Program-made: the position numbers and the translations under genes
The notes under the pieces: model-generated
Databases searched by the model: none
The model's input: only the letters and a program-made list of their open reading frames with translations
What the model was told of the DNA's origin: nothing
Assembly (NCBI GenBank): GCA_025617375.2
Contig: JAMYGW020000002.1
Coordinates: 1,860,001-1,924,000, forward strand
Reading direction: 5' to 3'
Source: Acarospora socialis
Lineage: Eukaryota > Ascomycota > Lecanoromycetes > Acarosporales > Acarosporaceae
Length of the DNA stretch: 64,000 nucleotides
In this document: positions 25,070-33,642 of the stretch, piece after piece
Layout of the letters: each line of letters opens with the position of its first letter
Numbering within the stretch: the first letter of the stretch is position 1

Positions 25070-26353
25070 CAAAGGCAACTACCATAAGTCCTGCAACACA
25101 CTAGTAGGGGTCAACACCACATGCAGAGATCACTTTAGATGTAAATTAGATGTAAATTATATAGAAATAGTATCAATTGAAACCTCTATTCATTTTCTTC
25201 ACCATTTCTTCATAAATTTGAACTATATACACAGTGTAAACATGTTCTCTATAAACTATAGCATTGTTCAACATACTCAGATTCTTACTCTATTCAAATA
25301 CAGAATTTCTGTCATCAAAGTGATCATTATAACAGAGATCTCAAAGAGTTTTCTCTATCATCTGAGAAAGAAAGCACAGACACAGAAATATAATTCTACT
25401 GTATTCTTCATTTTCAAGAATAAATATATTGTCAATGTTTCTCATACAGATCATTTTAAGAAGATATCAAAGACAGTGAAATCAGACATTCTAAAGAAAG
25501 TCAGAAAGAACAGAGCAAAAAGAAAGAAGACAACTCAGTAATTGACTGTTGATGCAAAGCTGTCAGTCATGACAGTATGATAAATTTTTAAGAAATACAG
25601 TTTTTTTAAGAGAAAATTTAACTATAAGTCAGATTTGATGAACACAATGCAGAAGACTCATCTTCAATTTATTCTCAGACACAAACACTGAATACTGAAA
25701 AACTAAAAGAAGATCATCTGAACAGACAAAATCAACATCATAATGAGACAGCAACAAAGAAACACAAGAATGTGACAGACAATTCAGAAAAGATACAACA
25801 AAATATATATTTATGTATGATGAAAGAAGTCATCAGAGTTCATATTTTGAAGATCTTTTAACTATAATTACAAGAGTTTCTATCATATCTGAAAAAAAGA
25901 AACAGCAAAAGAAAAGAAGAAAGCACAGAAAGAAATTGATAAAATCAATGTTAAAAATAAGTCTGCTGTTAAACTGATTTGAGAGTTAAAAACAGAGTTT
26001 AAAAGACTGAATTTATATAGAAAGACTAAAGAAAGATCTTCACAATGAAAGTATGATGTTTAGCATGAAGTCTGAAAGTAAAAAAAGAACTTTAAAGACA
26101 TAGATGTCTGATGTTATCAGAGTCTTATTTTAAAGAAAAAACTTCTATCTTTTATCATGAAGTGCATGCAGAAACATTTTAACACACTTATTCAAGAAAA
26201 TAAGACTTTCTCTCATGCTTTCAAGCATCAGATTTCAGTATTCAAAGACTTTGAGATGTTTCAACTCTTGTAATCTGACAATTTGTCTGATCTGAATGTC
26301 ATTGAGTCTTGCTGATCATGAATGAAGAGACAAACAATGAAGAATGAAGCTTC

Positions 26354-26358
26354 AAATC
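26354..26358 (+). other. 5-bp target-site duplication, left
   Basis: AAATC immediately precedes the left LTR and is repeated exactly at 26670-26674 after the right LTR. This is the expected 5-base footprint of an LTR-element integrase. Confidence 0.85.
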
Positions 26359-26414
26359 TGTCAAAAGTGGGCACCACACTTTAGCCATGCTAATCGTGGG
26401 TTATATTTCTAACA
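26359..26414 (-). repeat. 3' LTR of the TRIM
   Basis: 56 bases, TG..CA ends, identical to 26614-26669. It follows the polypurine tract in minus orientation, which makes it the 3' LTR. Confidence 0.9.
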
Positions 26415-26613
26415 CTCCCCCTAACCCATGACTGCCGGCAATGCGCTTACATCACTGAGATCCAGCTCCGCACAGGCAGGATTTGTGTGCGCAACGTGTG
26501 TTGAACCTGCAACCTTTGGGCTTACTCTCCACACCCTGGGCGGCCAATAGGCATACGGAATTAACCGCGTTTCTTGTGAGGTTTTTCCACTGCACTAACC
26601 CGGGCTCATAACC

Positions 26614-26669
26614 TGTCAAAAGTGGGCACCACACTTTAGCCATGCTAATCGTGGGTTATATTTCTAACA
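26614..26669 (-). repeat. 5' LTR of the TRIM
   Basis: 56 bases identical to the other copy. The primer-binding site abuts it on the minus strand, which makes it the 5' LTR. Confidence 0.9.
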
Positions 26670-26674
26670 AAATC
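26670..26674 (+). other. 5-bp target-site duplication, right
   Basis: AAATC, identical to 26354-26358. Confidence 0.85.
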
Positions 26675-27082
26675 ATCAATTGATTATGAAAAAGACATAA
26701 AAGAATGCATGAAAGAATCTAGAACAGAATTGAATTCAGCAGTGAATTGAATGAATATTGAGACATATTCATAAAATTATTGAATTGAAGAACAGCAACA
26801 AGTATAGGGAGAATAGGAAGAATGTGAACTTTGAATGAAAGCAATGATGATGAGATTGATGTCTCAAAGACTTGAGAGAAGCAACAACAACAATGTGAAG
26901 ATCTTGAAAACTCAGAAAAGATGTGGGAAGACTGATGATGACATGAGAAGACAGCAACAATGAGGTCAAGATTCTAGAACAATCAATTAGTTCTATTGAT
27001 TCTATTGATGGACAGGGGTCTGCATGTGGCATTTTTAGTATGCATAATTAGTGTGTTGCAGGACTTATGGTAGTTGCCTCCG

Positions 27083-29938: not shown

Positions 29939-32900
29939 ATGCCTAGAAAGGCTTTCGTGGCAGACCTACAAGAGGCTATCCGAGATAATGAATGCTCAAG
30001 GATATCGGAGCTTAAGACTGGGGACGAGGATGGCTCGTTTACGTTCACTTACACCCTGGTAGGAGACGATGCTCAACAGGTGGCAATCCAGGTTCTGGTC
30101 CCAGGTAAATGGTGGCTACTGCTGTGTTGACGTTTGGGCAACGGCGATGATCAAGCTAATGGCAAGTAGATGTGTCTGAATACCCTTCCAATCACCAGTG
30201 TTTGATCTTCTCCACTTCGGAAAATGTTCCTGCGTATATCAACGAAGCTCTGGAGAGCCTTAGCAGCTCCCTTACTGCGACCAAGCTCGCTACGATGTTG
30301 GCCAAAGTTTCCAGGACTTTGGACAATGCCCGAAGCGGAGACAGCGCCGATGACGCCATGGAAATTGATGACGAGGAAGAAGCGGACTTCTCAGATGGTG
30401 AATATGAAGACATCGACTCTACGGGAGCCTGGTCACCTCGGTCTCAGGAACAAGGCTTAACAAGCCATAAGGCTACTACGAACGTCAAGAGGGCCGGACT
30501 CAGCCATTCAGCCGCAAGAGCTTTCAAATCTAGGGTACGTCATGATCTTCGTATAGCAAAAGAAGCTGGTCTCAAAGTGGGTCATCTTGGTCTCGTATTG
30601 GAGGAAGGCGAAGACTCTTTCGTCTCTATCTCCTGTCGCATATCCAAGCTTGGAATCTCTGACGAGGCTATGCAAGCGTGGCATCTGGACCGGCGGCAAT
30701 ACCTGATCTTTCTCATACATTATACCGCAGGATACAGACCACTGGAGCACCTTGTTGCTAAAGAAGCTTCCCATGACGTTGGAACCATCGAGATGCGTGT
30801 TGGCCTCAGTTACCGCTACAAACCATCGCTCGCCCAAGCCATTGCCGCTTTCAGTCAGATATCGAAAGATACCACCAAACGACCGTTCGGGCAATCCGCG
30901 GATGCATCTGATCAGGATGACAAGCTCAGCAAGGATGAAGATTTCCAAGGCCTTTTCATCGGTAGACCGTTGAATGAGCTCGTCAACAAGCGTTTGATCA
31001 TTATCCTAAGATCACGGATGAGTCTCGGGATAGGATGGGGAGGTGCAGAGGCATTTTACAACGACTGCCAGGGGAGGACAGTCACCAACTCGGATACTAT
31101 AGATGGCAAATACTGGCAGGAAGATGATCCGAGCACTTCGAGCGCTCTTCCGCAGCGCGTCCTCGCGGATCATCTCAAGGACGCTACTACTACTAGCCTA
31201 GGGTCCTCGTTCCCACTTCTCGGCATGCAATTCGTCCTTCGCCACCTCGTACGTTGCACTGAATTCTGCCTAGTCTGCCACTGTAAGGTTGAGGCCGACT
31301 TCGAGGCTCTGAAACCTTACGTGTGCTCCAAGCCTCTGTGTCTGTACCAATATATGACTCTTGGCTTCGGGCCAAGCATCGAGTACGAGATCTTGACTCA
31401 GCCTTACGTGGTGGATTTGCTCGCCAGTTTCTGCTATTCAAGTGCCAAAGGAGGACGCTTGAGGGATTTCCCAGTGGGCATGGGCTTGATGGTTCCGCCG
31501 CCGCATTCTGGCTTACCTTCAGACGTCCAAACGTCCATGACACCCAGTCAGCTCGCTCGTCGGAATGTCCAGCCTCCAGCAGCTGGTAACGGCGTCGATG
31601 GCGCGCCCTCGTCGTCATCGAGTAATTTGGAGGATATTCGAAGCCTCGGTATAGACGCGTTGTGGAAGCCTCACAAGGTGAATTTCGACCACACAAAAAT
31701 GGAGATAGTTCTCACGGATACGACACTAGGAAATCCCCTAAAGAAAGGGGATTGGATTGTGTTAGAAGTATCAGGGACGCTGGTGGAAGACAAGAAGCTA
31801 CATTGTCGAGTTATCGAAACAGCCTACTTCCCTACCGTAAATCTAGCGCGTCCGGTAGTCCAGGCGTCTGGAACAGCGCCCTCATTCACACAGCAATTTG
31901 GTGCCATGCCGAGCCAACACAAGCCTCTGGTCCCTACCCCAGCGACTACTCCACCACCCTCGTCTTTGGCTCAGGCTTCTTTTACCATTTACAATCAGCA
32001 ATTTGACGAGCTGAGTGAGCATGGAAAGCGGAGTGCAATATGTGGCATTCTCGAAACACTACCTACCGTGATGCAAATGAGAGAATATCTCCGTAGCAGG
32101 AAACAGTCTCCGCACCTCGAAGGTTGGGTCGATCGACTCTCTCCAGCTGCGCGGGGAATCTTGCGGTGGATCATTGCGTCCAATCGGTCCTGCATTGTTC
32201 AGGTGGATAAGCTGGATGAAAAAGGTGCAGGATCAGGTATCGCAAGCAATCCTGAGCAGCGAGTCTATGGGATGAGCCAGTGGATGCAGTTTCGCTTCGC
32301 TCAGGGCGCGCCTGACAAGGAGCAGAGATTTGTGAACTCGGTGCGGGATGCCGCTGGGCGTCTTCAATTAAAGTACCCTACAATATTCGCCTGGCACGGA
32401 AGTCCCCTCGCGAATTGGCATGGTATAGTCAGGGAGGGCTTGCACTTCAAAGAAACCTTACATGGAAGGGCACACGGCCATGGATGCTACCACGCCCTGG
32501 ATGCGGCAACGAGCATGTCTTATTCCGGATTTCATACAGGATACAGTGGTACATCCAGTAATAGTTGGCCGCAGAGTCAATTGAAGATTTCGAGCGCTAT
32601 CGCACTAAACGAGATTGTTAACGCCCCAAACGAGTTCATCAGCAGAAGTCCCCATCTGGTTGTCGCTCAATTAGACTGGATCCAATCCCGTTATTTGTTC
32701 GTCAAAAACACAAGTCACACCGTGAACCGCCAGGACACTGTACCCGCACAGGTCTACGAGCAGGACCCTGCATTCACTCCACGAGGGGACACCCAGCAGA
32801 AAATCGTCATTCCTGCCACTGCAGTAAGCAAATCCCGGAGACCTTCCATCAAGATTATCAAACACGGAAACAAGAAGACAAAGGTCCTCGACGGTGACAA

Positions 32901-33642
32901 CCAAGAGACGGTACAGCAAGCAGAAGACGACGCCGGAAGTGTAGACACAGATCCCGAAGACCTCTCTCTTCTCCTCTCTGATACAGAAGAAGAAGAACTC
33001 CCGAAGACTGATTTCGTACCTGGGACGCTTGATCATACTACCCTTCCACTCCTCGAGCCGCCGGCTTACGCGACGACGATGGCATCCAAGTCGCTCCAGA
33101 AAATGCTATCGTCAACTCTACATGTCCAAGAAGCAGAGCCTGCGCATGAACTAGGTTGGTACATCAATCCTGAGCTCGTAAGCAACATCTATCAATGGAT
33201 CGTGGAGCTTCATTCCTTCGAACCCAATTTGCCCATTGCCAAAGACATGAAGGCCAAGGGTCTCAAGAGTGTCGTATTGGAGATGCGTTTCGGGAAGGAT
33301 TATCCAATGAGCCCACCCTTCGTGCGAGTCATCCGTCCGCGTTTCTTGAGCTTCATGGCCGGCGGAGGGGGGCATGTAACTGCGGGTGGAGCACTCTGCA
33401 TGGAGTTACTCACCAGTTCAGGCTGGATCCCAGTATCGCCGATCGAGACGGTGTTGCTGCAGATACGCTTGGCCATGTCCAGCACGGATCCTAAGCCCGC
33501 GCGATTGGAGCCAGGACCTGTGAGGGATTACGGCATCGGGGAAGCAGTGGACGCGTTTGTCCGTGCTTGTGCCGCCCATGGTTGGACGGTTCCGAAGGAC
33601 TTTCATGCCTTCAGCAGTTTCGCTCGTAGTGCCTCGAAATAG
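29939..33642 (+). CDS. PARP-UBC fusion: ADP-ribosyltransferase plus E2-like domain
   Basis: Two exons (29939-30104, 30170-33642; 65-base intron) give 1212 residues. The N-terminal 90 residues end in a VLVPDVSEYPSNHQC block like an RWD/E2-related fold, followed by acidic segments. Around residue 798 is a PARP catalytic motif (FAWHGSPLANWHGIVREGL), then GHGCYHALDAATSMSYSG. The UBC domain lies at about 1059-1196: LEMRFGKDYPMSPPFVRVIRPRF and GGALCMELLTSSGWIPV with the putative active Cys. This E2 style, without HPN, resembles UBE2Q. In the PARP part the usual third-triad Glu position seems to be Pro (SRSPHLVVAQ), suggesting mono-transfer or inactivity. Combined ADP-ribosylation and ubiquitin conjugation is inferred; the fusion itself is known in fungi. 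Confidence 0.85.

Follow-up and report, generated by a model that had tools for sequence, protein, structure and literature searches.

A miniature LTR retrotransposon of Acarospora socialis, its candidate copia partners and the mutation of its older copies

A 64,000-nucleotide stretch of the Acarospora socialis genome (assembly GCA_025617375.2, contig JAMYGW020000002.1, positions 1,860,001 to 1,924,000; hereafter the window) holds, at window positions 26359–26669 on the minus strand, a complete terminal-repeat retrotransposon in miniature (TRIM) of 311 bp. Judged from its structure and its relatives in the same genome, this element is very probably a non-autonomous long terminal repeat (LTR) retrotransposon of copia type, whose cycle would be driven by copia proteins. 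Read on the minus strand, a 56-bp 5′ LTR (26614–26669) carrying the palindrome TTAGC-ATG-GCTAA is followed by a 199-bp internal region (26415–26613), which begins with the primer-binding site (PBS; 26600–26613) and ends with the polypurine tract (PPT; 26415–26426), and then by a 56-bp 3′ LTR (26359–26414) of the same sequence as the 5′ LTR (56/56 identity, 0 differences between the two TG..CA repeats). The target-site duplication (TSD) AAATC flanks the element on both sides (26354–26358 at the left and 26670–26674 at the right of the window). The orientation was assigned to the minus strand because the tRNA-complementary GGTTATGAGCCCGG lies directly after the LTR at 26614–26669 and the purine-rich GGTTAGGGGGAG directly before the LTR at 26359–26414. 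Five open reading frames (ORFs) of at least 30 amino acids overlap the element; the longest, which also overlaps the internal region, has 63 amino acids, and none of at least 200 amino acids was found. Short near-identical TG..CA repeats, a PBS, a PPT, a constant 5-bp duplication and little coding capacity, the features by which TRIMs are recognized, are thus all present. A sequence-only reading of the window had described the identical repeats, the PPT, the perfect AAATC duplication and the lack of coding capacity in 311 bases, and its coordinates proved exact. It could show neither the strand of the element nor the hybrids, the degree to which other copies are mutated or the tRNA-like boxes described below.

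The same reading had reported a 12-base match to the initiator tRNA-Met. The match is real, and its length is 14 bases: the first 14 bases of the TRIM interior are complementary (14/14) to the 5′ half of the host tRNA, through the anticodon loop. The genome holds exactly one exact GGGCTCATAACCC, within a 73-nt tRNA-Met(CAT) gene (Rfam tRNA, 65 bits). The T-loop of this gene is AUCGAAA, which we take to mark it as the initiator. Copia elements prime with a 5′ tRNA half; from this practice and the complementarity of the PBS, we infer that the TRIM would be primed in the same way. In 17 of the 18 other two-LTR copies, the PBS differs from that of the window copy by transitions only.

A DNA search of the 31-Mb genome gave 29 matches to the element (the counts are lower bounds), 19 of which are two-LTR copies; a chance origin of the structure is therefore excluded. 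Besides the two-LTR copies (L007–L021 and L023–L026, the window copy being L009), the matches comprise one displaced end (L033, belonging to L016), four solo LTRs (L030, L031, L032, and L035) and five partial or hybrid copies (L022, L027, L028, L029, and L034). One of the latter, L028, was set aside as merely a 5′ end leading into unrelated sequence. A 26-base pattern for the 3′ half of the LTR occurred at 38 places, compared with 0 for the same pattern read backwards. Exact 5-bp duplications flank 16 of the 19 two-LTR copies and are all different in sequence, and the two halves of the L026 duplication differ by two transitions. Among the solo LTRs, the duplications of L031 and L032 are exact, and those of L030 and L035 are one transition apart. 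The sequence-only reading would have counted a different duplication at other copies as a refutation; differing sequences are what is expected of a mobile element, and it is the length of 5 bp that stays the same. The LTRs fall into subtypes that vary around the short palindrome.

The half-tRNA PBS had also been taken to point to a copia-type driver, a suggestion borne out by copia relatives in the same genome. The sequence-only reading would have been refuted had the genome held neither another copy nor a related copia element; both are present. Searching the genome with the RVT_2 profile gave at least 148 reverse transcriptase (RT) matches, with the pieces of one element counted separately and the best 150 of 176 candidates scored. 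The best RT (E = 3.6e-63; one in-frame TGA, stops being checked within the RT match) belongs to an element at C2:443866–449000, here called copia-Y, with LTRs of 184 bp that are 97% alike and the TSD CTATT. Its LTRs share their start with the TRIM, and its PBS and PPT are likewise shared, so that a copia RT lies between termini like those of the TRIM. The two PPTs have AGGGGGAG in common, and the alignment of PPT plus LTR start scored 44, whereas shuffled sequences reached a mean of 15.9 and a maximum of 31 (0 of 1000 as good). At the PBS, copia-Y matches the complement of the tRNA gene over 15 bases and diverges from the TRIM after 14. The first 294 bases of copia-Y gave at least 40 matches, including its own two LTRs (best 40 of 60 candidates). 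A short palindrome also stands in a similar place in the TRIM and copia-Y LTRs (TTAGCATGGCTAA; TATGGCTCGCTTAGCCGTA), its loop varying among the TRIM subtypes.

The second family, copia-X, is abundant and has LTRs of 204–220 bp (five copies measured), and its RT is 24% identical to that of copia-Y over 229 amino acids (one copia-X copy compared). With a query of the LTR and 5′ untranslated region (UTR) of L027, at least 46 copia-X matches were obtained, itself included (best 40 of 134 candidates). At the PBS, a 19-base agreement links the TRIM and copia-X, with 13–15 positions exact and the rest transitions (six copies compared); the next five bases differ. The TRIM may itself combine a copia-Y-like LTR and PPT with a copia-X-like PBS. 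As a separate observation, the copia-X 5′ UTRs contain tandem repeats that are imperfect and about 40 bp long (..CTCAAAGATTGAGCAAAACAA..; L067–L072, L027, and L034).

Copia-X is joined to the TRIM in hybrid copies. L027 and L034 consist of a TRIM LTR followed by the copia-X PBS and 5′ UTR. In L034, the copia-X body continues, is broken by a complete TRIM (L008, TSD ATATA) and an inverted two-LTR copia-X, and resumes at the matching copia position, passing the RT and the copia-X PPT and ending 130 bp into the copia-X LTR at C3:2239151; this reconstruction bridges 552 bases between two sequenced stretches, and the copia coordinates agree on both sides. L022 has the opposite arrangement, with a copia-X body and a full copia-X LTR followed by the TRIM PBS, interior and 3′ LTR. 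All three switch partner inside the PBS, in both directions. L027 and L034 look like separate events because they bear different TRIM LTR subtypes. A fourth copy, L029 (C31), joins a copia-X-like RT (69% over 429 bases) to the TRIM PPT and LTR. It was considered as an autonomous copia with a TRIM LTR, and this was rejected, as the RT stops just before the PPT and LTR; no clear 5′ LTR was seen by eye in 2.3 kb upstream, and L029 was treated as a fusion. Apart from this, L034 lies in a deep nest at C3:2226472–2240250 (L034, L008, L017, L080, and L073), in which the TRIM-LTR/copia-X hybrid sits within the 3′ part of a copia-X and has itself been hit by a TRIM and the inverted copia-X, the latter with another TRIM in its RT.

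The probable copia driver of the TRIM has two supports, namely the shared ends of copia-Y and the hybrids with copia-X, both of which are sequence signs touching mobilization in trans. If the hybrid joints are read as strong-stop transfer in a shared particle, TRIM and copia RNA would have been copackaged, and on balance we favor copackaging of the TRIM with copia-X, with modest confidence. Alternatively, the hybrids could be products of DNA-level recombination or gene conversion between neighboring repeats; they would then be uninformative on the driver, and copia-Y alone would drive the TRIM. The repeats are densely nested, and copia-Y, unlike copia-X, shares both LTR start and PPT with the TRIM. 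However, the three LTR hybrids join in the same PBS in both directions, a segment which provides the homology for plus-strand transfer and is very short for homologous recombination. Moreover, the 19-base agreement between the TRIM and copia-X reaches five bases past the tRNA match, five bases that copia-Y does not have; they are modest evidence, since transitions were allowed. We consider DNA-level recombination the less probable origin of the hybrids.

Several observations weigh against copia mobilization as set out here. The similarity between the copia-X and TRIM LTR/PPT is at chance level, 420 of 1000 shuffles being as good (one mutated copy compared). The copia body of L022 stands upstream of its copia LTR, unlike the product of plain plus-strand transfer and in keeping with recombination between DNA copies. 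L027 and L034 could not be linked to a target duplication on their right sides, so that they are not proven to be single insertions; the 3′ LTR of L034 ends after 130 bp and the copia part of L027 after about 310 bp. Finally, the PBS of L010 has two transversions, and no matching duplication was found for L018 and L019.

The cycle that we propose for the TRIM would account for what can be read directly from the DNA, that is, the cis signals, the dispersed copies with separate duplications, the solo LTRs, the copia relative and the PBS-joined hybrids. The host would transcribe the TRIM from LTR to LTR, and copia Gag would package the RNA. The cleaved 5′ half of the initiator tRNA-Met would prime minus-strand DNA at the PBS, the PPT would prime plus-strand DNA, and copia integrase would insert the product, making the 5-bp duplication. 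Hybrids would arise in particles that enclose both elements, when the plus-strand strong-stop DNA of one pairs with the copied PBS of its partner.

Most copies of the TRIM are heavily mutated. The 18 other two-LTR copies differ from the window copy by 1040 C>T/G>A changes, 132 T>C/A>G changes and 87 transversions. With L009 as reference, assumed to be near the unmutated state, and L015 left out, the mutated contexts in 17 copies were CCC (188/221), TCC (93/119) and ACG (66/102), and the spared ones were ACA (31/238 mutated) and GCT (6/153). The counts of CC/GG and CG are 45 and 12 in the window TRIM, 37 and 8 in L015, and 0–12 and 0 in the other 17 copies; the zero counts of CpC and CpG do not depend on L009 as reference. 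Four copia-X loci of 3.7 kb have 0–1 CC+GG, 0 CG and 519–589 CA+TG, and 20 of 21 AT-rich loci have 0–2 CC+GG and no CG. The exception is L022 (35 CC+GG and 11 CG), in which 45 of these 46 lie within the first 345 bases, a GC-richer far flank. In contrast, the GC-rich loci L036 and L029 have 414 CC+GG and 180 CG, and 385 and 116, respectively. In 260 AT-rich tiles of 250 bp, selected from the partly overlapping loci L010–L035 for a GC content of less than 34%, the observed/expected ratios were 0.06 for CpC, 0.01 for CpG and 1.51 for CpA, while 213 tiles of the window selected for more than 46% GC gave 0.95, 0.94 and 1.08. These figures describe a sample of loci. A process like repeat-induced point mutation (RIP) has left almost no CpC or CpG, and plenty of CpA, in the older TRIM copies and the other sampled repeats. 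Copia-Y (L036/L076/L077; GC 49%) has escaped this process among mutated relatives. Low CpC and CpG with abundant CpA also characterize the repeats L055, L056, L060, L065, L073, L078, and L080, as well as L007–L026 except L009 and L015 (L022 being a partial copy) and window positions 25101–26950 outside the element.

Among the copies found, the one in the window is the least mutated; L015 is lightly mutated. The insertion site of the window copy, the AT-rich block at 25101–26950, has observed/expected ratios of 0.0 for CpG and 0.16 for CpC outside the element, and there is no CC, GG or CG within 100 bp on each side of the element and six CC/GG in the 300 + 300 bp around it. Because the flanks are depleted while the copy is untouched, the window copy must have arrived after its surroundings were mutated. 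The family might instead be an inert relic, all of whose copies are old, the window copy seeming young through having escaped mutation. Mutation is absent from a single copy and light in just one more, and the accessible part of PMC9970103 names short elements as those best able to evade RIP. Set against that statement, 17 of the 19 two-LTR TRIM copies are mutated despite their small size, so that 311 bp alone gave no protection, and the identical LTRs and mutated flanks of the window copy speak for a late arrival. We therefore regard an inert relic as improbable.

Whether the signature reflects a repeat-directed mutator that departs from the CpA rule of RIP by acting on CpC and CpG and that brings older repeats to essentially none of either, while the TRIM family persists because new copies, made with borrowed machinery, land after the last round of mutation, we judge to be evenly balanced. 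The classical CpA preference was not seen in the sampled repeats, where the CpA ratio is 1.5 and the CpC and CpG ratios are near 0. As candidate mutators, four PF00145 matches were found at three loci (C3, C2, and C8; L087, L088/L090, and L089). In the C3 frame, a methylase domain is accompanied by a BAH match that falls slightly short of the curated threshold (29.9 vs 30.8 bits), and the frame matches PDB 9bap, ‘DNA (cytosine-5-)-methyltransferase’ (1e-191); the C2 frame matches methylase domains alone. If such a mutator exists, the TRIM family, being short, dispersed and hybridizing with copia, would be a natural recorder of it. If the pattern is genome-wide, it would show that a RIP-like defense can act in a base context quite unlike the classical one, and RIP indices based on CpA could miss it.

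The internal region offers a less expected feature, which hints at tRNA-like promoter boxes within the TRIM. A putative A-box-like TAGTGCAGTGG (26587–26597, minus strand) and a putative B-box-like GGTTCAACAC (26498–26507, minus strand) start 90 nt apart. None of 20,000 dinucleotide-shuffled interiors contained such a pair, and on either strand of the 64-kb window this pair is the only one. The strict A-box is present in two of the 19 copies (L009 and L015) and the strict B-box in one (L009). In the aligned A-box columns, 14 of the 19 copies show either no change or transitions alone, L019 has a transversion, and an insertion affects the last base in L015, L024, L025, and L026; at the B-box columns, every difference in the 18 other copies is a transition. 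These boxes could mean that the TRIM is an RNA polymerase III (pol III) element resembling TRIMp3, whose RNA would be made from a tRNA-derived promoter inside of the PBS, not in the LTR. The shuffles, the uniqueness of the pair in the window and the B-box columns fit such an origin, as do other T-arm-like stretches between short complementary arms in L015 (GGGTTCGCCCCC) and L021 (ATTCAAGTC) and the confinement of TTTT to near both LTR ends. However, the strict pair is found only in the window copy, though mutation explains much of this, and the motifs were picked after looking at the sequence. Rfam gave no match in the element (window at curated thresholds; L009 and L015 at E ≤ 5). A source SINE or tRNA for the interior was not found either: the DNA search matched TRIM copies only, and one narrow tRNA-type pattern gave nothing. 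Starting so far in, pol III would skip the 5′ LTR and yield RNA without the 5′ R, and the box-free copia controls are weak because copia-X is mutated. We consider a pol III origin of the RNA unlikely and retain transcription from LTR to LTR as the probable route.

Elsewhere in the window, the gene content (polyketide synthase and ABC transporters) fits the fungal host that the sequence-only reading had assumed. An ORF at 30172–33642 combines PARP catalytic and ubiquitin-conjugating domains in a single protein.

The following comparisons rest on the accessible parts of the papers cited. RIP of Neurospora and relatives likewise removes C in repeats by C-to-T change (PMC12543289, PMC2621366, PMC4522978, PMC5555474), but it targets CpA preferentially, whereas CpC and CpG are affected in the repeats sampled here. 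A 2025 kingdom-wide survey states a shared CpA preference (PMC12543289), and CpG has been given as the target in Microbotryum and CpG and CpA in Aspergillus nidulans (PMC2621366). Our literature search found, in the texts accessible to it, no report of a RIP of CpC plus CpG type; PMC5602860 was discarded as such a report since CPC is a strain number there, and PMC11412873 gives RIP as background only.

TRIMs primed at the anticodon loop have been described in fungi before. The Helenus TRIMs of rusts and some Agaricomycetes (Kojima 2024, PMC10886601) have a PBS for the anticodon loop of initiator tRNA-Met and inferred copia drivers, and the shortest of them is also 311 bp. Helenus, however, carries tRNA-derived sequence in its LTR, as expected of TRIMp3, whereas the tRNA-like boxes of the window TRIM are putative and interior, with no Rfam match in L009 and L015. 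Cassandra and Ajax (TRIMp3, PMC10886601) are likewise short LTR elements with promoters of small-RNA genes, but these are 5S rRNA sequences in the LTRs. Copia of Drosophila and Ty5 of yeast share priming at the anticodon region and, unlike the TRIM, are autonomous and coding (PMC10886601). Filamentous ascomycetes also include Zymoseptoria tritici, with one TRIM family in its library (PMC10652580), and Venturia inaequalis, with TRIMs at ALVi genes (PMC4646964); the accessible texts describe no driver or hybrids for them, and the comparison is by description, not sequence. The same holds for the basidiomycete Boletales, with TRIMs in three of five genomes (PMC5689174), while PMC13041039 and PMC3562529 mention TRIMs as method or background only. 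PMC10886601 describes as unknown the way in which TRIMs stay dependent on a driver. Joints between LTR and PBS, found here in both directions, are sequence evidence on which elements may share a particle, and looking for them is a test repeatable in any genome. The A. socialis family offers unusually direct evidence on its probable partners.
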